A stretch of DNA of 64,000 nt, from contig JACRJM010000007.1 of NCBI GenBank assembly GCA_016219965.1, forward strand, positions 436,294-500,293, read 5' to 3'. Of this stretch, positions 6,648 to 24,202 are shown one piece after another. The notes beneath the pieces are model-generated. The model saw only the letters and a program-made list of their open reading frames with translations. It was not told the DNA's origin and did not search any database. The position numbers and the translations under genes were made by a program. Source of the stretch: Candidatus Schekmanbacteria bacterium. GTDB taxonomy: Bacteria > Schekmanbacteria > GWA2-38-11 > J061. The first letter of the stretch is position 1. The number at the start of each line of letters is the position of its first letter.

Positions 6648-7157
6648 ATGTTAGCTGATTTCATCATTAAGCTTCAAAAAGCTTTAGACTCCGATCAGGA
6701 GCTAATCCGGAGGCTTAAGGGATTTAAAACATTTGCAGGCACACCTGACGGTCATTACAGGCGTGCCAGGCTCGAAGGGGAAAAAGCCATTGCAAGAGCT
6801 GTGCGGTGCTACCCTTTCGGAGGGAAAAGCCATCTTGATGGAAAAGAGATTATAGGAATAAATATAGCGGATGGAGATTCAAGCCTTACAGTGTCCCTTA
6901 AAAACGGAAAATTCAAAGTTGCGAGCGGGAAGATCAACGAACCATGTCTTAGCCTTGAGATTCCTAAAGAGATATTCAAGCTCACTATACTTGGCAGATA
7001 CAGGTGGCTTTGGACAATAGGAATGGATGAAGTCAATGTTAAATACATAGAAGGCCTTCCCCATTCAGACTGGGTAACGATATTTGAATTACTTGTCATA
7101 ATGCAGGAACTTAATGAGTTCGACACTGAACTCAGGGATAAAATAGAGAAGCTCTAA
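6648..7157 (+). CDS. SCP2-like small protein, oxidase operon
   Basis: 169 aa, no signal peptide. The middle (GINIADGDSSLTVSLKNGKF, then CLSLEIPKEIF) resembles the SCP2/sterol-carrier-type fold that binds hydrophobic ligands in a cavity; this is inferred from the pattern only. It stops 12 bases before the first FAD oxidase, so it is very likely co-transcribed and may present or bind a hydrophobic substrate for the operon's flavoenzymes. The Shine-Dalgarno before the ATG is weak. A family search could reassign it. Confidence 0.6.
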   Translation: MLADFIIKLQKALDSDQELIRRLKGFKTFAGTPDGHYRRARLEGEKAIARAVRCYPFGGKSHLDGKEIIGINIADGDSSLTVSLKNGKFKVASGKINEPCLSLEIPKEIFKLTILGRYRWLWTIGMDEVNVKYIEGLPHSDWVTIFELLVIMQELNEFDTELRDKIEKL

Positions 7158-7169
7158 AAAGGAAATGTA

Positions 7170-8600
7170 TTGGATATAATAAAAGAACAACTGGCGGGAA
7201 TTGTAGGAAAGAACAACCTCATTCTCGCTTCAGAGAACCTCGAGGAACTTGAGCCATACTACAGGGGAAACATAAGCTTCATCCCTGAAAGGGCTCCGCT
7301 CATGGCGGTAAAACCGGGAACAGTAGAAGAGATACAGGCAATCCTTAAAGTGGCTGCAATGAACAAGCTCCCGGTAACTCCCTTCAGTTCAGGAAAGAAC
7401 GGACACGGAGGTGCAATACCGTCAGTTCCTGGAATCACCATTGATTTACGGAGGCTTAATCGTATCCACCTTATAGATGATGTGAGCAGGAACGCCATAA
7501 TTGAAGCAGGCGTTACCTTTGCCCAGCTTCAGGAAAAGGCAAAGGAGAAAAAACTTCGGGTGCTGACGCCAATCGAACTTCCTTCCGACTCATCAGTCGT
7601 ATCAAGTTACGTTGACATGGAACCGCTTTATTCATGGCCAAGATACGGCGTTGAATCTATCCTTACAATGGAAGTCCTTCTACCAAATGGTGAGATCTTA
7701 AAAACCGGATTCGCCGCAATACCATTAGCCGACAAGCCCTACTTCCCCTTTGGCACGAACCCAGCTTATCTTAACAAGGTATGGTTCGGAGCGCAGGGGA
7801 CATTAGGTATTGTCACAAAAGCGGTAGTGAAACTAAAGACTCTGCACGAGACAAAAAAGGTACTTTTCATCCCGTTCAATTCTTTCATGGAAAGCTTCCC
7901 TGCAATAAAAGAGATAAAACGTTTCGGTTACCCTGTTGAGTTCTTTGTCGCAGATGCGGCATATCTTGCAGGACTTCTCTCCGAAGAAAGCGGACAGTTT
8001 ACCCAGCTTAAAAACGACCTTCCACCTGTAACGGCTGTAATTGTGTTAAGGGGGGAAAAGGAGGAAGTCGCTTACCAGAGGGAGGACATACTGGAACTAT
8101 CCGGGAAGCTTAATTTCAGTGTTATAGATTCACTCCCTGCTGACAGTCAAGCCGCGGCAAAAATCCTTGACGAGATAGAACTGCCAAAGGGATATGAAGG
8201 GTTTTCAAAATTAAGGGGAGGCTACAGCGTGATTCCCTTCATCACTATGGCAATGCAGATACCTATGTTTGAAAGGATTTTGGGACAGATGACGCAGGCT
8301 TTCAGCTATGACAGGAAAAATATTGGTTCACTTCTCATTCCTGTTGAGCCCACAAGGGTGCATTTCCAGTATTCATTCTATTATAGCTCTGCGAATCCGC
8401 AGGAACAGATGATAACACAGAAACTCTTTGAGACTTTGAGCAGTACACTGATAAAGATAGGCGCCTTCTTCTCAAGACCTTATGGGAACTGGGCTGAGCA
8501 GGTTTATGCAAAAGCAGGCGGCTATAAATCAATGGTAAAAGAAATTAAAAAGGTGATTGACCCGGACAACATAATGAATCCTGGAAAGTTAAATCTCTAA
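7170..8600 (+). CDS. FAD-binding oxidase, VAO/GlcD type (first)
   Basis: 476 aa, cytoplasmic. The N-terminal FAD_binding_4 domain (about 40-215) carries the pyrophosphate-binding loop (TPFSSGKNGHGGA) and GAQGTLGIVTKAVV near 210. The C-terminal cap ends in DPDNIMNPGKL, a signature of the glycolate oxidase/D-lactate dehydrogenase group. It starts with TTG, preceded by AAGGAAA; the nearby ATG at 7165 is out of frame. It sits directly before a CCG-domain Fe-S protein, the same pairing as GlcD-GlcF, so electrons probably pass from its FAD to that protein. The substrate, a hydroxy acid or alcohol, is not evident. Confidence 0.85.
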   Translation: MDIIKEQLAGIVGKNNLILASENLEELEPYYRGNISFIPERAPLMAVKPGTVEEIQAILKVAAMNKLPVTPFSSGKNGHGGAIPSVPGITIDLRRLNRIHLIDDVSRNAIIEAGVTFAQLQEKAKEKKLRVLTPIELPSDSSVVSSYVDMEPLYSWPRYGVESILTMEVLLPNGEILKTGFAAIPLADKPYFPFGTNPAYLNKVWFGAQGTLGIVTKAVVKLKTLHETKKVLFIPFNSFMESFPAIKEIKRFGYPVEFFVADAAYLAGLLSEESGQFTQLKNDLPPVTAVIVLRGEKEEVAYQREDILELSGKLNFSVIDSLPADSQAAAKILDEIELPKGYEGFSKLRGGYSVIPFITMAMQIPMFERILGQMTQAFSYDRKNIGSLLIPVEPTRVHFQYSFYYSSANPQEQMITQKLFETLSSTLIKIGAFFSRPYGNWAEQVYAKAGGYKSMVKEIKKVIDPDNIMNPGKLNL

Positions 8601-8628
8601 GCTATGGAAATTATTACAGGAAAAAATA

Positions 8629-9828
8629 ATGGCTGAAGAATATTGTTATCCATTTAACAGGAATAAGCTTGGCGACTACTATGAAATGCTATGGCGATGC
8701 GCCAAGTGCGGATATTGCAGGAACGTCTTCCCGTCAGACACTGAGCATGAGAGGTTCGGCAGACAATGTCCTCCGGGAGAACGATTCAGGTTTGAAGCCT
8801 ACTATGCATCCGGAAGAAATGAGATGACGCGGCGCCTCATTGAAGGAAAACAGGAGCTCACAGAGAGGCTCCGGCATATCCTTTACACATGCACGACATG
8901 TAATGCCTGCGAGGAATGGTGTTCAGCCACACAGGGTCTTTACACTCTGAAAATAATCATGGAATTAAGAAAATATTTTGTTGAACATGGAGGAGACATT
9001 GTTCCCCAGCACCGCAAAATAATTCAAAACCTTGAAAAGAATTACAACAGGGTAAACCGCAACAACAAAGACAGATTGGGCTGGCTCCCTGATAAAGGGA
9101 GAGGAATTGAAAAAGCTGATGTTGTTTACTTTGTAGGTTGCAGGTCGTCATTTAGAAGGATAGAGATTGCAAAAAGTGCCTACGAATTACTTACAGAAAA
9201 GCTCGGCTTAAAAGTCTCATTCATAGAAGATGAACGCTGCTGCGGCAGGCCTCTCCTTGAAATCGGCAAAGAAGAGATGGCGATAGAATTCATGCAGCAC
9301 AATGTGGAAAAGATAAAGGAGTCAGGAGCAAGTCAGGTGTTTTTTACATGCGCAGAATGTTTCCATAATTTCAACATACTTGAAAGCTTCGGGATAAAAA
9401 GGGAATTTGAGACAACACATATAAGCCAGTTCCTTGCTTTACAACTTAAAAGCGGGAAACTTTCTTTAGAGGGAATGGGAAAACGCAGAATCACTTTCCA
9501 TGACCCGTGCTATCTGGGAAGACACGAAGGCGTTTACGAAGACCCGCGGGAATTGCTCTCGGCAATACCCGGAAGTGAGCTCGTTGAAATGCCCCGCAAC
9601 AGGAAGAATGCCTGGTGCTGCGGAGCGGGAGGAGGTGTAAAGGAAGCTTTCATTGATTATGCGCAATGGATCGCGCAGGAACGGATGGAAGAGATTAAAT
9701 CAGTAAATGCAGATTTGCTTATAACATCATGCCCCGGGTGCAAAGAAAATCTCTGGGGGAAGGCAAAGGCAAACCAGGTAGAGATACTCGATCTTGCAGA
9801 GCTTATAAACAGGACGGTAAAAGGATAG
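8629..9828 (+). CDS. CCG-domain 4Fe-4S oxidoreductase (GlcF/HdrD-like)
   Basis: 399 aa. The N-terminal ferredoxin part has two Cys clusters, CAKCGYC at residue 24 (followed by FP, with no obvious fourth Cys at the usual place) and CTTCNACEEWC near 91. Two CCG domains follow (ERCCGRPLLEIG near 204, HDPCYLGRHE near 290, WCCGAGGG near 325, CPGCKENL near 366). CCG proteins carry electrons from flavoprotein dehydrogenases to quinone, or to other carriers through noncubane clusters. Flanked by two FAD oxidases 28 bases before and 14 after, it is the likely shared electron acceptor. The incomplete first cluster (CxxCxxC then RNVFP) is odd for the family. Confidence 0.88.
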   Translation: MAEEYCYPFNRNKLGDYYEMLWRCAKCGYCRNVFPSDTEHERFGRQCPPGERFRFEAYYASGRNEMTRRLIEGKQELTERLRHILYTCTTCNACEEWCSATQGLYTLKIIMELRKYFVEHGGDIVPQHRKIIQNLEKNYNRVNRNNKDRLGWLPDKGRGIEKADVVYFVGCRSSFRRIEIAKSAYELLTEKLGLKVSFIEDERCCGRPLLEIGKEEMAIEFMQHNVEKIKESGASQVFFTCAECFHNFNILESFGIKREFETTHISQFLALQLKSGKLSLEGMGKRRITFHDPCYLGRHEGVYEDPRELLSAIPGSELVEMPRNRKNAWCCGAGGGVKEAFIDYAQWIAQERMEEIKSVNADLLITSCPGCKENLWGKAKANQVEILDLAELINRTVKG

Positions 9829-9842
9829 ACGGGAATATACTT

Positions 9843-11327
9843 ATGGATGAAAACAGGGGCCAAGCTCTTTTAGAATTAAAGAATATCGTAGGGGAAGAGT
9901 GGGCATCGAATGACCCTGAGATCACATATGCCTATTCAAGAGATGTAAACCTCTACCCTGAGAATTTGTCCTCCATAATGCGTCCGCCCTTTTATGTTGT
10001 GCTTCCCGGCACCACCGAAGAGGTACAAAAGATCGTGGCAGTAGCCCGAACTCACAAACTTCCTGTCATAGTCCAGTCAACAGGCCTTAATATTGCCGGA
10101 GTATGTGTCCCTTCAAGGGGCGGCATATTGATGGATGTGAAAAGGATGGACAAGGTGATTGAAATAGACGAGCAGAACATGACTGCTACCATCCAGCCCT
10201 ATGTAAGCATTGCACGTCTTTCCTGCGAACTTCAAAAAAGAGAGATGTTCCTCCCTGTGCCAGGCAATCCTTCAACGGCAAGCGTTATATCTAATATCCT
10301 CGTAGGTCTTGGGCTTAAGGTCACAAACAGAGTGGGCAGACAGGAGCAGGGAATCGTAGGCTATAAGCTTGTCTTGCCTGATGGAACGATATTTAAATGC
10401 GGCTCAGGCGCTGACCCATTTATCCCTAAGAATTTCTGGCCCCATGGCCCGGGACCAGACCTCCAGCTTCTTCCAGTACATGCCATCGGAACGACAGGGA
10501 TAGTAACTGAAATGACCGTAAAATGCTGGCCGCGCGGGGAACATTACAAAGAGCTTTGGGTATCATACGATGACATTGACCGGGCCGCAGCGGCATTCCT
10601 TGAACTTTCACGTCTTGAAGTCTGCAAGGGGATAAACCTTTACGGCGGCAACAAATATACTTCCTATGCAACTGATACGCGCGAAGCCATAGAGCGGATG
10701 ATAAGGGTAAATCCGGAATTCCAGTTGATCCTTTCCATGGAAGGGACAACGAGGCGCATCGGGTATGAAGAAAATCTCATAAGAAAGATTGCTGAAAAAA
10801 CAGGAGGCAAAATAATAACCGACAAGTTCAAGCCCTACCAGACATTCGTTGAATCACATGCAGGAATGTCCGGAAGCTTCTACTCGGATTATTCCATGAA
10901 ATACTGGGGTTCAAGAGGCGCCAACTGGGTCGCCGCAGGATTTGCAACTCCTGACAGGATACCGGATTTGTACAAGGCTTATACGCAGGCGGTGCTTGAT
11001 GATCCGGAATACAGCGATCCTGACTTCGGCAATGGTGAGACATGGAGATCAATCATAGCTTATCCATATGAAGGCGGTCATTATTACTTTACAGAACACG
11101 GCATAGACAGCCACCCGGGAGACCCGAGATGGCAGGAAGTAGTAAAAAGAATCGGCTCAGCTCTTCCAAGATACGGGGCACAGAGAGGGCTTATAATAAT
11201 GGGATTCAACAGGGCGCCCCGCGAAGGACTTCCGCGCGTCATAGGCCCTTATTATGATGTGGCAAAGAAGATAAACGAAAAGCTCGACCCTGAGAATATA
11301 ATGCAGCCGGGATTCGTATTCCCTTAA
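9843..11327 (+). CDS. FAD-binding oxidase, VAO / 4-cresol dehydrogenase-like (second)
   Basis: 494 aa from the ATG at 9843. The open frame extends further upstream, but that part overlaps the preceding gene, so the shorter start is chosen. FAD_binding_4 domain: STGLNIAGVCVPSRGG near residue 80, then PGNPSTASVISN and GTTGIVTEMTVKCWPRG. The C-terminus ends KLDPENIMQPGFVFP. It resembles vanillyl-alcohol oxidase/4-cresol dehydrogenase-type flavoproteins more than GlcD. Two different VAO-fold enzymes around one CCG protein suggest a two-step oxidation or a heteromeric complex. An aromatic or hydroxylated substrate is a guess. Confidence 0.82.
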   Translation: MDENRGQALLELKNIVGEEWASNDPEITYAYSRDVNLYPENLSSIMRPPFYVVLPGTTEEVQKIVAVARTHKLPVIVQSTGLNIAGVCVPSRGGILMDVKRMDKVIEIDEQNMTATIQPYVSIARLSCELQKREMFLPVPGNPSTASVISNILVGLGLKVTNRVGRQEQGIVGYKLVLPDGTIFKCGSGADPFIPKNFWPHGPGPDLQLLPVHAIGTTGIVTEMTVKCWPRGEHYKELWVSYDDIDRAAAAFLELSRLEVCKGINLYGGNKYTSYATDTREAIERMIRVNPEFQLILSMEGTTRRIGYEENLIRKIAEKTGGKIITDKFKPYQTFVESHAGMSGSFYSDYSMKYWGSRGANWVAAGFATPDRIPDLYKAYTQAVLDDPEYSDPDFGNGETWRSIIAYPYEGGHYYFTEHGIDSHPGDPRWQEVVKRIGSALPRYGAQRGLIIMGFNRAPREGLPRVIGPYYDVAKKINEKLDPENIMQPGFVFP

Positions 11328-11370
11328 GCATTTTATAAAACCAATTTATAAAAACCACGAGAGGAATGAT

Positions 11371-12132
11371 ATGAGACTTGATAACGTCATAGTCAGGCTT
11401 ACTACCATAATGGGACCGGAGTGGATCATGGCATATGCGCTTATAAATCTTCAGCCTGAAATTGACATCGATAAGTTCAGGGTTGAAATGCCAAAACGTC
11501 TTAAACGCCACCATGAAACAGAAAAATATCTTGGAAGAGTTCCGGGTGATTTGTTCATAGGGTTCTTTGCAAAAGGGCAAACCGAACTTTTCGAAGAAAT
11601 AAGCAGGATAAAATCATGGAAGGAAGTACAGGAGGTAAAGGAATGGGCAATAGTAAATTTTCCGACAACCAAGCTTGAGCTTTCAAAGCTTGAGTGGCGC
11701 ATAGTTAAGAGCCTAAGGGGTGGAGCTCTTAAAACTCCGGAAGAAATAGGAAAAGAACTTAACGAAAAGCCGGAATTGATAAAAGAAAAGATCGAACGGA
11801 TCAAGGCAATCCCTCTTTCATTCAGCATAGAGCCGCCCAACAATAATAAATGGACATTCACAGAAATACATTTCGAATTTATTGGAACGACTTTCAAAGA
11901 AAGGGCAGCCGAGATATCAAAGGTCGGCAAACCCTTCTGCGCCACCGGAAGCAAAAGCTCCGGCGCCATAATGGTTGAACCAAAAACCGTAGAAGAATTC
12001 CAGGACCAGATCAGAAAAATGTCATTGATCCCCGGAGTCAAGGTCGCAGGCTTTGCCTTCTGCGAAGACATGATCTGGAGCCAGCCCTGGCTTGATGAAT
12101 TCATAGATGAACGTATAGCAGAAGCAAATTAG
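11371..12132 (+). CDS. Lrp/AsnC-like regulator with internal winged helix (tentative)
   Basis: 253 aa. Residues 1-95 look like an Lrp ligand-binding (RAM) domain. Residues about 105-148 (LSKLEWRIVKSLRGG, then TPEEIGKEL) resemble an AsnC-type helix-turn-helix, and residues 160-245 look like a second alpha/beta ligand-binding half. That order, sensor then DNA-binding then sensor, differs from standard Lrp, where the HTH is N-terminal. Good upstream site (GAGAGGAATGATATG; GAGAGG). It lies 43 bases after the FAD oxidase and may autoregulate the operon and bind the 27-bp palindromes. All of this is inferred by eye. Confidence 0.5.
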   Translation: MRLDNVIVRLTTIMGPEWIMAYALINLQPEIDIDKFRVEMPKRLKRHHETEKYLGRVPGDLFIGFFAKGQTELFEEISRIKSWKEVQEVKEWAIVNFPTTKLELSKLEWRIVKSLRGGALKTPEEIGKELNEKPELIKEKIERIKAIPLSFSIEPPNNNKWTFTEIHFEFIGTTFKERAAEISKVGKPFCATGSKSSGAIMVEPKTVEEFQDQIRKMSLIPGVKVAGFAFCEDMIWSQPWLDEFIDERIAEAN

Positions 12133-15110: not shown

Positions 15111-15767
15111 TCAATCCATATACTTAACAAATGTTCTTGTTTGCTCCTCCCACTGAGGAATTTTTGAACGCTCGATTAACATTGGAACTTCACTCAATTT
15201 GTCTGGATAACGAAGGAAGAACCATTTTTTAAATTTATCCAGTGCCTCGTGATACTCCAGAGGCGTAAATGTTTTTGATGCACCCAGTGTGATGTCATTA
15301 GTATCATTTAAAAAGTGCTTTGGTATTTTATGTATACCCGAATTCATAATGGGTTCATTTACCACCTCATCTTCATTTGCAGTGATTTCTTTTAATTCTG
15401 ATTTTGCATGTGCAATGGTATTGCGCACCCTAATAAGAGAAATCAGTCTCTGATATACGAAATGTTCTTTGTTAATCACGAATTTACCGTTTGTTAATAC
15501 TGGAACGAGAACTTTAAGTTTATTCGGCAGCGACAATGACATCATTGCATAAGAAAAATCATTGCCATATTGTTTCTCTGTGTCATGGAATGAATCGTTA
15601 AGTTTTGATTCAAGATATGCAGCACAGGTCAGGATATAAGGGATTACCAAGAAGTCTGGATTCTTAGTATCAAGATAGTGCTTTTTAAATTTTTCTAACG
15701 CACGCCACAATTGTGAGCTTTTAATGGCACGGAACGCATATTTATAACGCTTATCTTTATCAGTCAT
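15111..15767 (-). CDS. Hypothetical protein with HEPN-type RNxxxH motif
   Basis: 218 aa, soluble, alpha-helical by composition, not recognised as a named family. Residues 115-120 read RNTIAH, the RNxxxH signature of HEPN nucleases and toxins, within a helix (SLIRVRNTIAHAKSE), preceded by a helical region as HEPN domains require. HEPN proteins are RNases in toxin-antitoxin and abortive-infection systems. No obvious antitoxin or nucleotidyltransferase partner is adjacent; its upstream neighbour is the BRO-N protein. The motif alone cannot prove nuclease activity. Confidence 0.6.
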   Translation of the reverse strand: MTDKDKRYKYAFRAIKSSQLWRALEKFKKHYLDTKNPDFLVIPYILTCAAYLESKLNDSFHDTEKQYGNDFSYAMMSLSLPNKLKVLVPVLTNGKFVINKEHFVYQRLISLIRVRNTIAHAKSELKEITANEDEVVNEPIMNSGIHKIPKHFLNDTNDITLGASKTFTPLEYHEALDKFKKWFFLRYPDKLSEVPMLIERSKIPQWEEQTRTFVKYMD

Positions 15768-15943
15768 TCTCTAATTACCCAATTAGCCACAAAAATTTAG
15801 ATTGAATCCTCATAAGATGCTAAACACAATTTCTTGCCATATATGATAGTCATGTGAAAAAAGATCTGTTACGCTTTTTATTGCCTTAAGCTGGTAATCG
15901 AGCACGGAATCCAATTTTAGTTTCATTCTTTATTGTCTCCCTA

Positions 15944-16783
15944 CTACTTGATCTTCTTACGGTGTTTAGAAGGTGGTAGAAAGTTTTCTCCTGTAACAAC
16001 TCTTTTCCCTGTTTTTTCTTCCAGTTCAAATCTGGCATTCTTTGCAATCTTTCCGCCCTTTTTGCCTGCCCGGGCATTCTCAATCACACCGGTGGATTGT
16101 ACGCTTTCAGCAATCTGTCTTGTGGAAAGTTCAGCAAGAGCAGTAAAAATAAGTTCAGCTTCAGTCATATGATCTCTAAGATTCTGCGTTTTAAGTCCTT
16201 TTATATCTTTATGTTTCTTCACAGATACGCCTGCCCATTCCTGATGAATAATATTGGTAAGAAACGCATATTCCTCTTCCTTGGTGACTTCATGTTCTTT
16301 CCAATAGTCGGTTAACTTATTGCGAGTTTCCTGTCCCATCATCCGTTGTTGAATCCACTTTTCACTTCTGCCGTGTTGTTGCCAGTATTCACGGGCGCGG
16401 TCAAGAGAACGGGCAGGATCGCTCATATCCTGAAGCCTTTCATATCCGACTTTTGCCAGCCAGAGTTTGATCGGCTCTGCCTTGGGGCTGGGAACGGACT
16501 GGATAAGACGAAGAAGCGTTTCAGGATCAGCAACATCAGTAAGATATTTTTTACCATCGGCAGCGGGTAATTTCAGTTGGTGACAGTTTGTCACCGACTC
16601 ACTACCCTCTTTTTTAAGCCGTTCCTTAAGTTTATTCCAATATTTCCGGGCAGTCTGATGATTCGATTGTTGAATCAGTGCCGCTATTATATCAATGACC
16701 GAAAAATACCAGGTCTCTGTCGTTTCATCATAATGACGGCGAATATTATAGTTTTCAAATACAGCTAATGTGTTATCTGTCAT
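15944..16783 (-). CDS. BRO-N / DinD-like protein
   Basis: 279 aa. The N-terminal BRO-N domain (about 8-110; AVFENYNIRRHYDE, then YFSVIDIIAAL and ARKYWNKLKERL) is followed by a region like DNA-damage-inducible protein D (RAREYWQQHGRSEKWI, then RNKLTDYWKEHEV, TNIIHQEW) and a basic C-terminus ending HRKKIK. BRO-N domains occur in phage antirepressors and DNA-binding proteins. The family is usually accessory and mobile, so with the HEPN-motif gene downstream it may mark a small acquired island. Function is unproven for the family. Confidence 0.8.
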   Translation of the reverse strand: MTDNTLAVFENYNIRRHYDETTETWYFSVIDIIAALIQQSNHQTARKYWNKLKERLKKEGSESVTNCHQLKLPAADGKKYLTDVADPETLLRLIQSVPSPKAEPIKLWLAKVGYERLQDMSDPARSLDRAREYWQQHGRSEKWIQQRMMGQETRNKLTDYWKEHEVTKEEEYAFLTNIIHQEWAGVSVKKHKDIKGLKTQNLRDHMTEAELIFTALAELSTRQIAESVQSTGVIENARAGKKGGKIAKNARFELEEKTGKRVVTGENFLPPSKHRKKIK

Positions 16784-17023: not shown

Positions 17024-18004
17024 ATGAAGATATTTGACAGCCACATTCATCCGGGATTTGAGAAAAAAGGGATAGAAAAAAGACCCGGCTGCCTGCGTCT
17101 CTGGATGGCAAAGGAGGGAGTCACATCCCAGACCCAGATGGCACTGAGAATGGCGTTAGGCGACCCCAATCCAACCAAGCCTATTAAATCAGTAGACGAC
17201 ATCCCTGAATTTAGCGTCGAGACATGGATAAAGCTGATGGATGCCAATGGTGTTGCAAAGGCACTGCTCATGGGGATGGACACCATTACAGACCCGCCTT
17301 ACAACGAACGCTGGCATGTGCCAATGGAATATATAAAAGAAGAATTCCTCGATAAATACCCAGACAGATTTGTAGCCACTGCAGGAATAAATGTGAAGGC
17401 GAGCTTACAGGAAAGAATGGAAACTTGCTACAAGGCAAAGGAGCTTGGTTTCAAGGGGGTAAAGATACATACTCCATCCGCAGGGTATCCCAATGATGTT
17501 CAAAGATGCTACCCAGTGTATGAAAAATGCGTAGAGCTGGGGCTCCATGTTGAGATTCACACCGGACAGGAGGAGATACCTGGAACAAGGGCAAAGTACC
17601 AGGACCCGGTCTTTATCGATGATGTTGCCGTAGATTTCCCGGAGCTAAGAATAGTCCAGCTTCACTGCGGTCTAATGAACAACCCGAGACAGGCAGTATG
17701 GAATGTCATAAGACATCCCAATGTTTACACTGATATAACCGTACCGCATCCGACGCTCATGCAGTTCAGATACTTCATGGATCTCGAGCACATAAGGTTC
17801 CTTGAGACGTTCGCTCCCCACAAGGTGTGGTTCGGAACAGATGCCCCACTGATTTTACCGATTTACAGCACAGCCCTTGAATTTATAAAACTTCTCCCGC
17901 TCTCTGCCCAGTTCAAGAAGATGCTCTTCTGGGACAATGCCTACAATTTCTACTGCGGAGACTGGAGGGAAAAACAGGCAGCACAGTCAAGGGAGGCAAA
18001 ATGA
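17024..18004 (+). CDS. Amidohydrolase_2 family metal-dependent hydrolase
   Basis: 326 aa TIM-barrel hydrolase of the ACMSD-like amidohydrolase_2 group. Metal-site motifs are visible: FDSHIHPG at residue 3 (HxH), GFKGVKIHTP near 150, HVEIHTGQ near 180, IVQLHCGL near 215 and FGTDAPL near 275. The reaction is hydrolysis or decarboxylation of a small organic acid; substrate unknown. GGGAG precedes the ATG by seven bases. First gene of the operon; its stop overlaps the ATG of the next gene (ATGA), showing translational coupling to the flavoprotein. Confidence 0.85.
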   Translation: MKIFDSHIHPGFEKKGIEKRPGCLRLWMAKEGVTSQTQMALRMALGDPNPTKPIKSVDDIPEFSVETWIKLMDANGVAKALLMGMDTITDPPYNERWHVPMEYIKEEFLDKYPDRFVATAGINVKASLQERMETCYKAKELGFKGVKIHTPSAGYPNDVQRCYPVYEKCVELGLHVEIHTGQEEIPGTRAKYQDPVFIDDVAVDFPELRIVQLHCGLMNNPRQAVWNVIRHPNVYTDITVPHPTLMQFRYFMDLEHIRFLETFAPHKVWFGTDAPLILPIYSTALEFIKLLPLSAQFKKMLFWDNAYNFYCGDWREKQAAQSREAK

Positions 18005-19275
18005 CATACGATGTGGCGATAATCGGCGCAGGTCCTGCCGGTCTTATGGCTGCCAAAAGGGCGGCAGAAAAGGGGTTCAAAGCTGTTGTAATCGAAAAGA
18101 GAAAAAATGTTGGCGTGATCACCCGCTGCTGCTGCATGAACTTCATCCTCGATGACCCTTACATGGGGGAACGTGCTGATTACAGGGACGGCAAGATGAT
18201 GTTCCCTTTAACAGGCTTCGATGTTGAATACAAAGGAAGCGTAAAACCGGTCTACCACAAGGTCTACAGGTCCCCCTCAGGACATGAACTTACCTTCTCA
18301 AACAGAAAAACCGGCAAACCAATCTCCTACAGGTTTGACAAAGGGTTCCTGCTTAAAAGTTTATGGGAAGAATGCGGCAAAAAGGGTGTCACCCTTATGA
18401 ATGAAACAGTCGCATACAATGCCAAAGATACAGGCAGCGGCGTTGAAATTGAAACTGTAAGAAAAAAGAAACATGAAAAGATCACGGCAAAGAAGGCAAT
18501 CATCGCTGATGGTGTCAACTCCAGGATTTCCGAAGCCATAGGGTTAAATGAAGGCAGGACATATTTCACCACAGGCTTTGCCATGATATTCGAAATCGAA
18601 GGTTATCAGAACCACCCGGAATCCACATGGGTCGGGCATTTCGGAAGAAGTTACTATTCCAATGCAGCAGTCCTCATGGGGATTACCCTTGATGAAGGGA
18701 TAGTTGAACTTGTGGCAATGGGAGGAAAAAGTAAACTGCCGCCGCTTATCTATGAAGATTTCTCGACAAAAGGAAGACTTGCAAAGAATTTCGAAAAGGC
18801 GAAGGTTGTGCGTGCAACAGGATGCTCAGCCAAGGCTTTTACAGGAATGAAAAAACCGTACAAGGGCAATTTCCTCGCCATTGGCGACACGGGAGCTTAT
18901 GTTGAAGTCGAAACACAGGGCGCCCTAATGTGCGGTTACAAGGGGATAGAAGCTCTATCTCAAGAGTTTGACGGAAAAAATGGTTTTGAAGAATACACAA
19001 AGTGGTGGCTGAAATCATTCGAGTTTAACGGCGATGATTTCCTGCAGGTCGCACAGGGTTACGCTCTTATCCCGACATACACTGATGAAGAACTGGATTA
19101 TCTCTTCGCTCTCGCTGAAAAAAAGGAATTAGAGGGTACTTACAGCCAGTACAAGACTCCCAAACTTATGTGGAATGCATTCCTTGAGCATAAGGACAGG
19201 ATAAAAAAGGAAAAACCCGAGCTTTTTGCGAAAATAGAGAAACGGACTTCCGTAACGCTTAAAGATTCTTTCTAA
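18001..19275 (+). CDS. Geranylgeranyl-reductase-like FAD oxidoreductase
   Basis: 424 aa. The Rossmann FAD fingerprint is at the N-terminus (IIGAGPAGLMAAKRAAEKG), the second FAD motif is near 295 (FLAIGDTGAYVEVETQGAL), and YRFDKGFLLKSLW near 110 is typical of the geranylgeranyl reductase/PHBH-like group. These enzymes saturate prenyl chains or oxidise lipids and quinones. Three consecutive Cys (TRCCCMNF near residue 41) close to the FAD site are unusual. The operon places a 55-aa two-cluster ferredoxin just downstream, as in archaeal and anaerobic prenyl reductase pairs, so it is probably ferredoxin-fed. Confidence 0.8.
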   Translation: MTYDVAIIGAGPAGLMAAKRAAEKGFKAVVIEKRKNVGVITRCCCMNFILDDPYMGERADYRDGKMMFPLTGFDVEYKGSVKPVYHKVYRSPSGHELTFSNRKTGKPISYRFDKGFLLKSLWEECGKKGVTLMNETVAYNAKDTGSGVEIETVRKKKHEKITAKKAIIADGVNSRISEAIGLNEGRTYFTTGFAMIFEIEGYQNHPESTWVGHFGRSYYSNAAVLMGITLDEGIVELVAMGGKSKLPPLIYEDFSTKGRLAKNFEKAKVVRATGCSAKAFTGMKKPYKGNFLAIGDTGAYVEVETQGALMCGYKGIEALSQEFDGKNGFEEYTKWWLKSFEFNGDDFLQVAQGYALIPTYTDEELDYLFALAEKKELEGTYSQYKTPKLMWNAFLEHKDRIKKEKPELFAKIEKRTSVTLKDSF

Positions 19276-19486: not shown

Positions 19487-20329
19487 ATGAAAAAAATAAA
19501 AGTATCAGATATAACCGCTGCGATAAAGCGGATGTGCATGGAGTCAAACTTCGAACTTGGAGAAGACGTTCTAAGAGTCATCGAAGAAGCTGTCGGAAAA
19601 GAAGAATCACCGATGGGAAAAGCAGTGCTGGAGCACATCAAAGAAAATGCTGAAATTGCACGCACCCAATCCATGCCGCTATGTCAGGACACAGGAGTTG
19701 CAATCTGCTTTGCCGACATCGGGCAGGAAGTCCACATCGAGGGTGGAAGCTTTGAAGAGGCAATAAACGAAGGAGTAAGGCAGGGATATACCGAAGGCTA
19801 TCTCAGAAAATCAATCGTCGAACATCCTCTTAGAAGGAAAAATACCGGAGACAATACCCCTGCCGTAATCTATTCAACTATTGTACCCGGAGATTCTCTT
19901 AAACTCTCACTCATGACAAAGGGGGGCGGCGGAGATATGATGAGTACAGTGAGAATGCTTACTCCTGCCGATGGCATTGAAGGGATAAAATCATTGATTC
20001 TGGATACTGTAATAAAAGCCGGTGCAAACCCCTGCCCCCCGATAATCGTAGGTGTGGGCATAGGCGGAACCTTCGAGCTTGCCCCGATTCTGGCTAAAAA
20101 ATCGCTGTTAAGGAAGGTGGGCACTCCGAGCCCTGACCCTGACCTTGCAGCTTTAGAAAAAGAAATGCTTGAAAAAATAAATAATACAGGTATAGGACCG
20201 CAAGGATATGGTGGTAAAATTACAGCTCTTGCAGTTCATATCGAGGCTCGCCCTTGTCATATTGCATGCCTGCCTGTGGCTGTAAATTTGAATTGCCACT
20301 CGCACAGACATAGGGAGGTAATTTTGTAA
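19487..20329 (+). CDS. Class I fumarate hydratase alpha subunit (lone)
   Basis: 280 aa. It matches the N-terminal half of 4Fe-4S class I fumarase and related tartrate dehydratases, with three cluster Cys in motifs [27 protein letters not shown] and [18 protein letters not shown]. The enzyme interconverts fumarate and malate. The beta subunit normally following directly is absent; the next gene, overlapping by one base, is the fumarate reductase/succinate dehydrogenase flavoprotein. The beta subunit may be elsewhere in the genome. This is a two-step malate-fumarate-succinate module at protein level. Confidence 0.9.
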
Positions 20330-22053
20330 TGATTATAGAACATGATGTAGTAATAGTCGGAGCAGGGCTTGCAGGCGCAAGGGCGGCAGTTGAGCTTTCA
20401 GGAAAAACTGATATCGCGGTTGTATCCAAAGTGTTTCCACCGCGATCGCATTCAACAGCAGCTCAAGGCGGCATAGGGGCAGCATTAGGAAACTTAGAGC
20501 CGGATTATCCTGAATGGCACGCTTTTGATACGGTGAAAGGAAGCGATTATTTAGGCGATCAGGATGCCATCGAGATAATGGCTTATGATGCTCCGCGGGC
20601 AATCTATGAGATGGAGCACATGGGTGTACCATTCAGCAGGACAAAGGAAGGGAAGATTGCCCAGCGCCAGATAGGCGGACATACGAGGAACTTCGGTGAG
20701 GGTCCTGTAAAACGATGCTGTTATGCGGCAGACAGGACAGGCTTTGTCATGCTTCACGCCCTTTATGAGCAATGTATAAAAAAGAACGTCAAATTTTATT
20801 CAGAGTTCCTGATGCTTGACCTTCTTATAGAAAATAATGTCTGCTGCGGCATTGTCGGCATAGATATAAAGACCGGCGAGCTTTCTGTGATACATTCCAA
20901 AGCAGTGCTTTTTGCAACAGGCGGCTATGGTAAAATCTTTAAAACGACTACAAACGGTTACGCCTCAACAGCGGACGGATATGCCATAGCATACAACTCC
21001 GGTCTTCCGCTCGAGGATATGGAATTCGTGCAGTTTCATCCCACAGGACTTTACAAACTCGGCATACTCATAAGCGAAGGTGCACGCGGCGAGGGAGGAA
21101 TACTCCGCAATAACGCTGGCGAGAGATTCATGGAAAAATATGCTCCGACTATGAAAGACCTTGGACCCCGCGACCTTGTTTCAAGATCCATCATGACAGA
21201 AATAAAAGAAGGACGTGGAATCGACGGGAAAGACTATGTCTATCTTGACCTTCGCCACCTCGGACGAAAAGAGATTGACCTAAAGCTTCCCGATATATCT
21301 GATTTCAGCAGGATCTATCTCGGGATAGATGTTGCCGAGTCGCCCATACCAATCCAGCCCACGACTCATTATGCTATGGGAGGAATCCCCACTGACAACG
21401 ATGGCAGGGTAATAATAGGGAGCCAGAAAGTTCCTGTTACAGGATTCTATGCGGCAGGGGAAGTTGCATGCGTATCAGTGCATGGAGCAAACAGGTTAGG
21501 CACAAACTCACTTCTCGATACAATTGTATTTGGCAGACGCGCCGGCAAATCGATTAATGAGTTTTTAAGGTCTGCTGAATTTGAGCCTCTTCCACAAAAT
21601 CCAATGGAAAAGACAAAGGAAAAGATCAGTGGAATCATTAACAGCAAAGGAAAAGAAAAGGTCCCTGAAATCAGAAAATCCATGCAGGAAGAAATGATGG
21701 ACAAGTGCTCGGTTTACAGGGAAGATAAAGGACTCACAAAGGTTTGCGGACATATTAAAGAACTGAAGGAAAGATATACAAATATTTCAATTGCTGACAA
21801 GGGAACAACATACAATACAGATCTGCAGGACGCGATAGAGCTGGGTTTCATGCTCGATATCGCAGATGTGATTGCGACGGGCGCCCTTAACAGGACTGAA
21901 AGCCGCGGGGCACATTGTCGCGATGACTATCCTAATCGTGATGATGCTAAATGGCTAAAGCACACCCTCGCATATAAGTCCGATTCGGAAATTAAAATTG
22001 AATACAAAGACGTTTGCATAACGAAATTTCAGCCAAAGGAAAGAAAGTATTAA
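20329..22053 (+). CDS. Succinate dehydrogenase/fumarate reductase flavoprotein subunit
   Basis: 574 aa, full length. Rossmann FAD motif [16 protein letters not shown] at residue 8; covalent-flavin His in SHSTAAQGG near 45; active-site motifs QFHPTGLY near 240, GEGGILRN near 263, [10 protein letters not shown] near 345 and RLGTNSLLD near 390. No Fe-S subunit (SdhB/FrdB) or cytochrome b subunit follows in this window, so it either pairs with subunits encoded elsewhere or works as a soluble flavoprotein. Neighbours are fumarase alpha (upstream, one-base overlap) and a bilin-reductase-like gene three bases downstream. Confidence 0.92.
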
Positions 22054-22056
22054 TTT

Positions 22057-22764
22057 ATGAAAAACTATCTTGGGGAACTTTGGGACGAGATAGCAAAAAA
22101 TATAAAGCTTGAAGAAATAAATCCTTTCCCTGACCTTAAGGATTTCAAGGCAAAAGGGAAAAAGGGAGAGATAGTCATTGAAGGAGCAGTTCAGCATTTC
22201 AAATCGGAAAAGATAGAAAAGATCGCCTATGGCAGATATCTGATGACCGGAGTCGAGATAAACGGTGTAAGCATAATTCCTGCCGACAACTATGACCTTC
22301 CGATTTTTGCCTGTAATCTTTCCTCAACGCCGCGTGGAATCAACATGGATGTTGATTTTTACGGGACCAAAGACCCCATAGTGAATTACAACTATCTTGA
22401 AAAGTATTACTCTCCTCTTAAAGAAACCTATGATGAGTTCCTGAAACTTGCACAGGTTAAACCGCTTGAAAGCGATTTTTTCTGGTCAAGGACAATGAGA
22501 TCCCCCTATTTCATCAAAGGTCTTTGTCCGGAACCTGATTCAGCTCCTTTTATTAACCTCAGCATGAAGCGTCTAATTAAATGGCTCGATTTGTGGAAGG
22601 AGGCTCAGCCGGTAAAAGATGAAGCAGAGGCCGGGCTTATAAAAAAAAGAAAATCAATGATAAGGAAAGTGACCGCTGAAGGAGACCCCGGGAAAGCAAG
22701 ATACTTCGACAACATCCTTGAAGATAAGAATATCATCCAGAGAATAACCGACTCAATGATATAA
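22057..22764 (+). CDS. Ferredoxin-dependent bilin reductase-like protein (divergent)
   Basis: 235 aa. Aligned by hand with remembered Synechocystis PcyA, the central block (GEIVIEGAV, then GVEINGVSIIPADNYDLPIFACNLS, residues 38-89) and the C-terminal block (GKARYFDNILEDK, residues 212-224) match without gaps over about 50 and 30 residues. The PcyA active-site residues Glu76, His88 and Asp105 correspond to Tyr58, Gly70 and Asn87 here, so it is unlikely to be a normal phycocyanobilin synthase. It may reduce another tetrapyrrole or be a structural relative such as an RCC-reductase-like enzyme. No haem oxygenase is nearby. It is in an operon with a ferredoxin gene. The fold is inferred, the function unknown. 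Confidence 0.5.
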   Translation: MKNYLGELWDEIAKNIKLEEINPFPDLKDFKAKGKKGEIVIEGAVQHFKSEKIEKIAYGRYLMTGVEINGVSIIPADNYDLPIFACNLSSTPRGINMDVDFYGTKDPIVNYNYLEKYYSPLKETYDEFLKLAQVKPLESDFFWSRTMRSPYFIKGLCPEPDSAPFINLSMKRLIKWLDLWKEAQPVKDEAEAGLIKKRKSMIRKVTAEGDPGKARYFDNILEDKNIIQRITDSMI

Positions 22765-22780
22765 ATAATAAGGGGAATCT

Positions 22781-23476
22781 ATGAGTGGGAGATCCGGAGT
22801 AGATTTCAGGTCAACAAATCTCGACATAGTTATAGCTTTAGCTATTACGCTTGGACTCCCTTTTCTCTGCGCCAGGCTTTATGACACGACAGGCGCCTTA
22901 ATTCCGATTCTTACCTATTATACCATCTGTTACGTTGTGGTAAAATGGCGCAAGGGAACATTGGATTACAACTGGCCTGAAAAAAAGATGGTCACCCCTC
23001 TCTTTGTCCTTTTATTTGCAATAATGATGATACTTATCTCTGCGGCTGCCTGGATAACACCTCTTACATCTCCAGAGAAAACAACATTCATTGGTTTTGC
23101 TGTTACGCTGCTCGTCTGGTGCACTGTAAACGCCTTTACCGAACAACTAATATGGATTTATATTTATGATGCCTTTGCAAACCGGTTTGAGGGGAAAGGG
23201 CTGAAAATCCTTGGACACGGACTGGGGCTCGTCTTTTTCTGGGCATTCATCGGACTCATACATGTATTTTTCTGGGTCAAATTCCTTCTGGGTATGGAGC
23301 AGATATCCCCTTATTTCCAGATATTCATGGGGCTGCAATATCCAATCACAATAGGGTATTTGGTTATTTACAGGAAAGGCAGGAGCATGTGGCCTGTCGC
23401 CATTCTGCACTTTCTACAGGACATTGGCGGAGTAATTGCTTCAAAGTATTCCATACTACCGTATTTATTTAAATAA
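22781..23476 (+). CDS. CPBP (CAAX-like) intramembrane protein, degenerate motif
   Basis: 231 aa with about seven hydrophobic segments. The layout resembles CPBP/abortive-infection-type membrane proteases: Glu121 in TEQLIWIY, His161 in FIGLIHVFF, and His210 with Asp214 in LHFLQDIGG. The canonical first motif EExxxR is reduced to EQxxxI, so protease activity is doubtful. Last gene of the flavoprotein operon (16 bases after the bilin-reductase-like gene, with AAGGGGAA upstream). Its role with the redox genes is unclear. Confidence 0.6.
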   Translation: MSGRSGVDFRSTNLDIVIALAITLGLPFLCARLYDTTGALIPILTYYTICYVVVKWRKGTLDYNWPEKKMVTPLFVLLFAIMMILISAAAWITPLTSPEKTTFIGFAVTLLVWCTVNAFTEQLIWIYIYDAFANRFEGKGLKILGHGLGLVFFWAFIGLIHVFFWVKFLLGMEQISPYFQIFMGLQYPITIGYLVIYRKGRSMWPVAILHFLQDIGGVIASKYSILPYLFK

Positions 23477-23578: not shown

Positions 23579-24202
23579 ATGCAGCCTGATGTTTCGCTTG
23601 GAGTTGCCCTTTACGATTATGCCCCTAACATAGTTTTTGTCTTTGGGATTTACTGGATAATTAAGTCTTTAAAAAGCGAGCTTTCAAAGTCTTCTACTTA
23701 CCTTATAGTCTTTGCTTCAGCACTTGTAATAATTGCAGGGATTCTTAAAGCAACGTGGAAACTCATCATTGCCTTGTCAGGCTCAGATGTGAGGATACTC
23801 TCAGACATTATGTTCCCTCTGATGGGAACAGGTTTTTTTCTTATATTTATTGTTCTTCTCATGGTTGTGATAAGGAAAAATCCTGAAAAATCTTTTAAGC
23901 CTCTTGCCATCGCCTCTTCAAAGAAAATCTTCCTGCCTCTCATGATAATCGGAGGGATGGGGACAACGATATGCCTCCTTATAATCTCATGGAGAAAGAA
24001 AGCCCGGGCTGCATTTGTATTATTTATTATCGAGCTGATAATGACTCTTATGCTGGGCTATGTAGGAGGAAAATTTGAAGTGGTTACAAACTTCGGAGTC
24101 TTCCTTGAGCAGACACTAAACCTGTCATCAAGGATAGTATGGATGCTGGGCTGCTTTTATCTCTATAAGAAAAGCAGCGAATTAAATCCGCTAATTAAAT
24201 AG
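23579..24202 (+). CDS. Multi-spanning membrane protein, unknown
   Basis: 207 aa with about six hydrophobic segments and short hydrophilic loops (KNPEKSFKPLA, SWRKKARA). No recognisable motif or conserved charged residue in a helix. AGGAGAAA lies just before the ATG. It follows the structured repeat and may or may not belong to the upstream operon. The downstream genes are on the other strand. Function cannot be assigned. Confidence 0.7.
   Translation: MQPDVSLGVALYDYAPNIVFVFGIYWIIKSLKSELSKSSTYLIVFASALVIIAGILKATWKLIIALSGSDVRILSDIMFPLMGTGFFLIFIVLLMVVIRKNPEKSFKPLAIASSKKIFLPLMIIGGMGTTICLLIISWRKKARAAFVLFIIELIMTLMLGYVGGKFEVVTNFGVFLEQTLNLSSRIVWMLGCFYLYKKSSELNPLIK

Follow-up and report, generated by a model that had tools for sequence, protein, structure and literature searches.

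What does a bilin-reductase-like protein do in a bacterium of Candidatus Schekmanbacteria when it is encoded in a cluster with a ferredoxin and the residues that characterize PcyA have been replaced? The question is raised by one gene, at positions 22057-22764 of a 64,000-nucleotide stretch of contig JACRJM010000007.1 (the window). Our current hypothesis, to which we give a probability of roughly 55% as a whole, is that the gene product is a candidate cofactor-free, ferredoxin-dependent reductase of a linear tetrapyrrole or a similar conjugated substrate. An initial annotation had suggested that the protein might reduce some other tetrapyrrole or be a new enzyme linked to ferredoxin. That proposal is still the best reading, although the picture of a degenerate PcyA has been given up on the evidence of the tree and AU test described below.

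The open reading frame is intact and encodes 235 aa. Its best Pfam family is Fe_bilin_red (PF05996), which it matches with 29.4 bits (E 7.7e-7), just below the curated cut-off of 31; the RCC_reductase family (PF06405) scores 19.3 bits, below its cut-off of 24.9. A phmmer search of the protein against the PDB returned GtPEBB as the best match (E 2.4e-5), with RCCR and HY2 also matching. When a lineage profile of 26 relatives was searched against the PDB, the E-values were 1.3e-34 for GtPEBB, 1.5e-26 for HY2, 4e-24 for PebA, 2e-22 for PcyA, 9e-10 for PebS, and 1e-9 for RCCR. Judged from these comparisons, the homology to ferredoxin-dependent bilin reductases (FDBRs) lies far beyond chance. The initial annotation had let its reading stand or fall with an FDBR-fold match in a predicted structure. 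The AlphaFold model (pLDDT 93.1, pTM 0.90) contains the alpha/beta/alpha fold of FDBRs, and likewise that of RCCR, and the top PDB matches in Foldseek were GtPEBB, RCCR, HY2, and PcyA, all with a probability of 1.00. GtPEBB was closest by E-value (2e-12), RCCR (3AGA) and HY2 reached a TM-score of 0.83, and PcyA a TM-score of up to 0.78; coproporphyrinogen oxidase came next, weakly. Pfam, phmmer, the lineage profile, and Foldseek thus agree with the observation that the protein is bilin-reductase-like. The alignment itself is not gapless as had been claimed, since gaps fall over the C-terminal block in the phmmer alignment with PDB sequences. An orthologue in a related genome (G001) is 74% identical, with dN of 0.22, saturated dS, and all key positions conserved. 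This comparison reveals strong purifying selection, which rules out a pseudogene.

Table 1 The FDBR/RCCR-superfamily gene, its cluster, and its aligned catalytic positions in the window
Feature	Positions	Strand	Basis
FDBR/RCCR-superfamily protein, 235 aa (P0001)	22057-22764	+	Pfam PF05996, AlphaFold, Foldseek, orthologue
Amidohydrolase (Amidohydro_2), conserved first gene of cluster	17024-18004	+	81% identical orthologue, same position in G001
Geranylgeranyl-reductase (GGR)-like flavoprotein	18001-19275	+	TIGR02032 68.6 bits, below cut-off; G001 orthologues 78%, 58%
2[4Fe-4S] ferredoxin, 55 aa	19286-19453	+	Translation; G001 counterpart L035:2496-2669
Class I fumarate hydratase alpha subunit	19487-20329	+	Not in G001 cluster
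Succinate dehydrogenase/fumarate reductase flavoprotein subunit (SdhA)	20329-22053	+	Not in G001 cluster
Integral membrane protein, weakly Rce1/CPBP-like, conserved downstream partner	22781-23476	+	PF02517 E 0.018; 75% identical in G001
Membrane protein, conserved downstream partner	23579-24202	+	No Pfam match; 58% identical in G001
Tyr58-Gly59 codons, column of PcyA Glu76	22228-22233	+	Alignment
Gly70 codon, column of PcyA His88 / HY2 catalytic Asp	22264-22266	+	Alignment
Asn87 codon, column of PcyA Asp105 / RCCR Glu154 / HY2 Asn	22315-22317	+	Alignment
Arg145-Thr-Met-Arg148 codons, RCCR-side motif R-x3-SP, aligned with RCCR Arg215 and Phe218	22489-22500	+	Alignment
Asp210 codon, kept catalytic acid (PcyA Asp220 / GtPEBB Asp219 / RCCR Asp291)	22684-22686	+	Alignment

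To place the protein in the superfamily, a maximum-likelihood tree was built with rows for PcyA, phage FDBRs, PebA, PebB, GtPEBB, HY2, plant RCCR, and a cyanobacterial RCCR-like protein. A branch supported at 97/95 with all rows, and at 96/95 without the two longest, puts it on the RCCR side. Nesting among the known FDBRs was rejected by an AU test (p 0.002). Grouping with RCCR was not rejected (p 0.29), but a direct grouping has no support in the tree, in which plant RCCR and its cyanobacterial relative form a clade of their own (98/95) and the deep nodes inside the RCCR side are not separated. A simple or degenerate PcyA relative is ruled out by the tree and the AU test. By this phylogeny, the protein is not a strict FDBR: it falls outside the known FDBRs, on the RCCR side. 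It should be filed neither as an FDBR nor as an RCCR, because the defining features of each were tested for and found wanting; it represents a new lineage of the FDBR/RCCR superfamily. Rockwell 2023 mentions in passing a group of Candidatus Schekmanbacteria sequences that fell in the outgroup with RCCR, the same region of the family tree, and that probably come from the same bacterial lineage, given that the proteins occur here in an isolated order of four genomes; the main text of that paper does not describe paralogue number, neighbourhoods, residue states, or the missing haem oxygenase (PMC10151467).

The protein is also not alone in its genome. Pfam detects eight family members in this genome of 3.58 Mb (98% complete) and the profile nine, and three related genomes hold 14, 3, and 4, with members on both sides of the FDBR/RCCR split. 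The FDBR side takes 15 of the 26 relatives in the full tree and 13 in the tree without the long rows. Outside this order, only four genomes in a sample of 386 had a match, one each; the largest count in a sampled cyanobacterium was three. Contamination is an unlikely source of the expansion, as the contigs that carry the Pfam-detected copies are 218-516 kb long and family members are seen again in the three related genomes. A paralogue family of 3-14 members in each of four related genomes is a real oddity, one that the initial annotation could not see. Contig C7, which makes up 14% of the genome, carries six of the eight Pfam-detected copies (binomial p 2e-4).

No source of bilin was detected for these proteins. 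What had been remarked of the neighbourhood, that it has no haem oxygenase, is true of the whole genome as far as PF01126 is concerned: this family had no match in any of the four genomes in a search with a positive control (HugZ and IsdG types fall outside this family search). Phycobilisome-family proteins (PF00502) gave no match in the four genomes, in a search that could miss remote globins, and BchN gave none above cut-off; a chlorophyll or phycobilisome context was rejected on these grounds. Anaerobilin synthase (HutW/ChuW) was likewise rejected as a bilin source, with only sub-cut-off matches, which reach at most 190 bits against a cut-off of 400 and are most likely HemN/HemW-type proteins. 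A lineage whose sampled genomes each carry several FDBR/RCCR members, drawn from either side of the split, while no haem oxygenase is detected, has either a hitherto unrecognized source of open-chain tetrapyrroles or another chemistry for the fold.

The gene cluster offers a further view of the function. Only one orthologue was found, that in G001, and the cluster has been seen in two genomes; searches of genome contigs, viral contigs, and phages gave no other orthologue, and plasmids gave only a weak match, to a cyanobacterial PebA. The order in G001 is amidohydrolase, GGR-like flavoprotein, 2[4Fe-4S] ferredoxin, second GGR-like flavoprotein, FDBR-like protein, Rce1-like membrane protein, and membrane protein. 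The window keeps this order, with the fumarase alpha subunit and SdhA standing where G001 has the second GGR-like gene. The amidohydrolase had no match at E 1e-35 in the remaining 370 genomes, and it and the close GGR homologues occur in just two of 372 genomes; since they and the 22057-22764 protein are found only in those two, the three co-occur. Ferredoxin, GGR-like flavoprotein, and SdhA had all been named as operon neighbours and all are present, but the comparison with G001 removes SdhA from the conserved cluster. SdhA and fumarase were accordingly rejected as functional partners and, on gene order, probably stand outside the system. Elsewhere in the lineage, GGR and ferredoxin genes are paired with no FDBR-like gene present, so the ferredoxin may serve the flavoprotein alone. 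It probably donates electrons to the flavoprotein and may do so to the FDBR-like protein as well; as a sign of ferredoxin-dependent bilin reduction, its gene in the cluster is suggestive only.

Several minor features of the locus should be noted. The class I fumarase alpha subunit has no beta subunit visible next to it and is followed by SdhA. In G001, an SdhA that is 72% identical (L042:3730-5454) lies on the opposite strand beside a different FDBR-like paralogue, whether by coincidence or not. Just upstream of the cluster, on the minus strand (15111-16783), HEPN-like and Bro-N domain proteins adjoin a 4Fe-4S ferredoxin. An operon at 6648-12132, read by eye as FAD-linked oxidase and Fe-S oxidoreductase, resembles one beside an FDBR-like gene of another related genome, G002 (L043:4454-8987).

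Redox genes recur beside the other paralogues, among them aldehyde:ferredoxin oxidoreductase, sulfite-reductase-like Fe-S proteins, and B12-radical-SAM proteins. DUF169 proteins, a BchU-like methyltransferase, and one ferredoxin-like ORF (by eye) also adjoin paralogues, as do methyltransferases, SDR-like ORFs, and glycan clusters. The neighbours belong mostly to redox or tetrapyrrole-type superfamilies, each of which is broad, and none fixes the substrate. A B12-binding radical SAM gene lies directly upstream of an FDBR-like gene in three genomes of two families (L119, G000:C9; L045, G002; L048, G003); this two-gene module is conserved, and in two of the three it is embedded in a glycan-type cluster that also has ABC transporter genes. 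Proteins of about 300 aa with NIR_SIR and 4Fe-4S domains adjoin paralogues at L031:9502-11142, L019:1361-3001 (similarity only), and L033:9485-12632. A small membrane protein at L031:11268-11735 recurs, being 57% identical to one at L037, and DUF169 (COG2043) proteins lie near two different paralogues (L033:6701-7369 and L042:2129-2842).

This setting gives some weight to a different substrate, in that the fold could have been co-opted as a general ferredoxin-dependent ene-reductase (e.g., of an isoprenoid, quinone, or polyketide) beside the GGR-like flavoprotein. The mechanism would overlap with that of our hypothesis and the substrate would differ. The GGR-like partner, the methyltransferases, SDR-like ORFs, and glycan clusters near other paralogues, and the lack of haem oxygenase, phycobiliprotein-family, and above-cutoff BchN or HutW matches in four genomes despite 3-14 paralogues are all consistent with such a role. 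To our knowledge, however, every characterized member of the superfamily acts on linear tetrapyrroles. This precedent (see also PMC10151467) and the complete PebB-type Asp pair in many FDBR-side paralogues lead us to regard a non-tetrapyrrole substrate as rather unlikely; by the same precedent, a tetrapyrrole-like substrate is most likely.

The residue states bear on whether the protein catalyzes anything. Alignment with real PcyA rows confirmed two of the replacements first proposed, His88 by Gly70 and Asp105 by Asn87. The third, Glu76 by Tyr58, holds if the alignment is left ungapped as in the initial annotation, whereas the aligner's gap places Gly59 in that column; Glu76 is replaced either way. 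All three key residues are thus changed as claimed, but a fourth acidic residue had been missed, namely Asp210, the C-terminal catalytic Asp, which is kept in the lineage. The central acid is missing both at the Asp105 column and at the His88 column, where HY2 has its Asp, and Thr206 takes the place of the A-ring Arg. About ten of the 26 relatives keep the Asp105/Asp220 pair in PebB style; the FDBR-side paralogue at G000:C10:113126-113833 has the pair complete. Most RCCR-side relatives have in common a W-x-R-x3-SP motif. Its Arg occupies the column of Arg215 in plant RCCR, and the residue that precedes SP falls in that of Phe218, known from F218V crystal structures; R-x3-SP is shared with plant RCCR and the cyanobacterial RCCR-like protein. 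In RCCR itself, Glu154 and Asp291 are presumably the catalytic residues, and a literature search for the corresponding residues of bacterial RCCRs gave nothing.

It is not uncommon for the PcyA triad to be lost. In pre-1 FDBRs all three residues are missing, yet these proteins are weakly active and make a little phytochromobilin (PMC10151467). In vascular-plant HY2 the Asp105 column holds Asn, and the critical role passes to another Asp (PMC6755814), which in our alignment falls in the His88 column. PcyA D105N retains about 10% activity via an axial water (PMC9800206). By these precedents, the replaced residues do not exclude activity. No known proton relay is complete, however, because Asn87 is the same change as the D99N substitution that inactivates GtPEBB, and the compensating Asp of HY2 is Gly70 here. 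Catalysis could therefore have been lost, leaving a protein that binds, carries, or senses a tetrapyrrole or a ligand like it and perhaps passes this ligand to the flavoprotein. The replaced triad and the non-acidic Asp105 and His88 columns would fit such a protein, but the kept C-terminal Asp and the conserved enzymatic partners and ferredoxin make it improbable.

The same residues separate the protein from the known enzymes. It resembles PebB/PEBB and HY2 (GtPEBB 6QX6, tomato HY2 6KMD) in fold, in Asp210, which corresponds to GtPEBB Asp219, and in Asn87, which corresponds to the Asn of vascular-plant HY2, and its best Pfam family and closest PDB structure by E-value could indicate an authentic FDBR-type biliverdin reductase. 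Since the AU test rejects the known-FDBR clade, the Asp105 and His88 columns are both non-acidic, and neither an A-ring Arg nor a haem oxygenase is found, we consider this very improbable. The pre-PcyA FDBRs (pre-1, pre-2, and pre-3) are likewise FDBR-like proteins of non-phototrophic heterotrophic bacteria without the PcyA triad, but they lie on the PcyA branch, and pre-1 and pre-3 usually occur with V4R, globin, Fe-S, and haem oxygenase genes (PMC10151467). No cluster of that type (bilin-binding globin, V4R, Fe-S protein, haem oxygenase) is found at the 22057-22764 locus, where amidohydrolase, GGR, ferredoxin, and membrane proteins stand instead. Formation of red chlorophyll catabolite requires an upstream oxygenase. 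A true RCCR acting on environmental chlorophyll breakdown products is similarly far-fetched, for although the protein shares with Arabidopsis RCCR (3AGA/3AGB; PF06405) its fold (TM 0.83), side of the tree, R-x3-SP motif, and C-terminal catalytic Asp, it has Asn87 for Glu154, a sub-cut-off family score, no supported place in the plant/cyanobacterial RCCR clade, and no chlorophyll context.

With homology, fold, residue states, purifying selection, the conserved cluster, the paralogue expansion, and the lack of a detected haem oxygenase established, we return to a ferredoxin-dependent reductase of a linear tetrapyrrole or similar substrate, for which catalysis, electron donor, proton relay, substrate class, and pathway would, as we infer them, be as follows. 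The protein would belong to one of several RCCR-side lineages multiplied in this bacterial order. A flat conjugated substrate, a linear tetrapyrrole or one of like shape, would be bound between the central beta-sheet and the C-terminal helices, with Asn87 holding it as the Asn of plant HY2 does. Single electrons would be passed on by a reduced [4Fe-4S] ferredoxin, probably the product of the upstream ferredoxin gene of the cluster, and protons delivered via a water held by Asp210 would complete the reduction. The substrate would probably be processed further by the co-conserved flavoprotein, in another C=C reduction, and by the amidohydrolase. Against this scheme stand the missing bilin source, the incomplete proton relay (Asn87, Gly70), the possibility that the ferredoxin serves the flavoprotein only, and the occurrence of the cluster in just two genomes.

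FDBR and RCCR are known only as bilin and chlorophyll-catabolite reductases downstream of oxygenases. We tentatively suggest, at less than even odds, that this lineage uses the FDBR/RCCR fold for general-purpose, cofactor-free, ferredoxin-driven reductases, up to 14 paralogues per genome and each tied to a different pathway, that would act on haem-oxygenase-independent tetrapyrroles or on non-bilin substrates, the 22057-22764 protein being one such enzyme. The question lends itself to direct testing on small soluble proteins, and either outcome would bear on the origins of these enzymes before oxygenic photosynthesis, a question raised by Rockwell et al. 2023 (PMC10151467). The main text of that paper, in noting Ca. 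Schekmanbacteria sequences, does not report the paralogue expansion; the literature searched gave no description of the expansion size, the neighbourhoods, or the missing haem oxygenase.

Further members extend the range of the family. One G001 locus (L035, G001:C7:1-19000) carries four FDBR-like genes of three lineages within about 11 kb. Two very divergent FDBR-like proteins, at L123 (G001:C142) and L124 (G001:C280), are seen only with the lineage profile (75 and 34 bits, respectively); the L124 gene is flanked by a DUF362-like protein and a small Cys-containing protein, each identified by eye.
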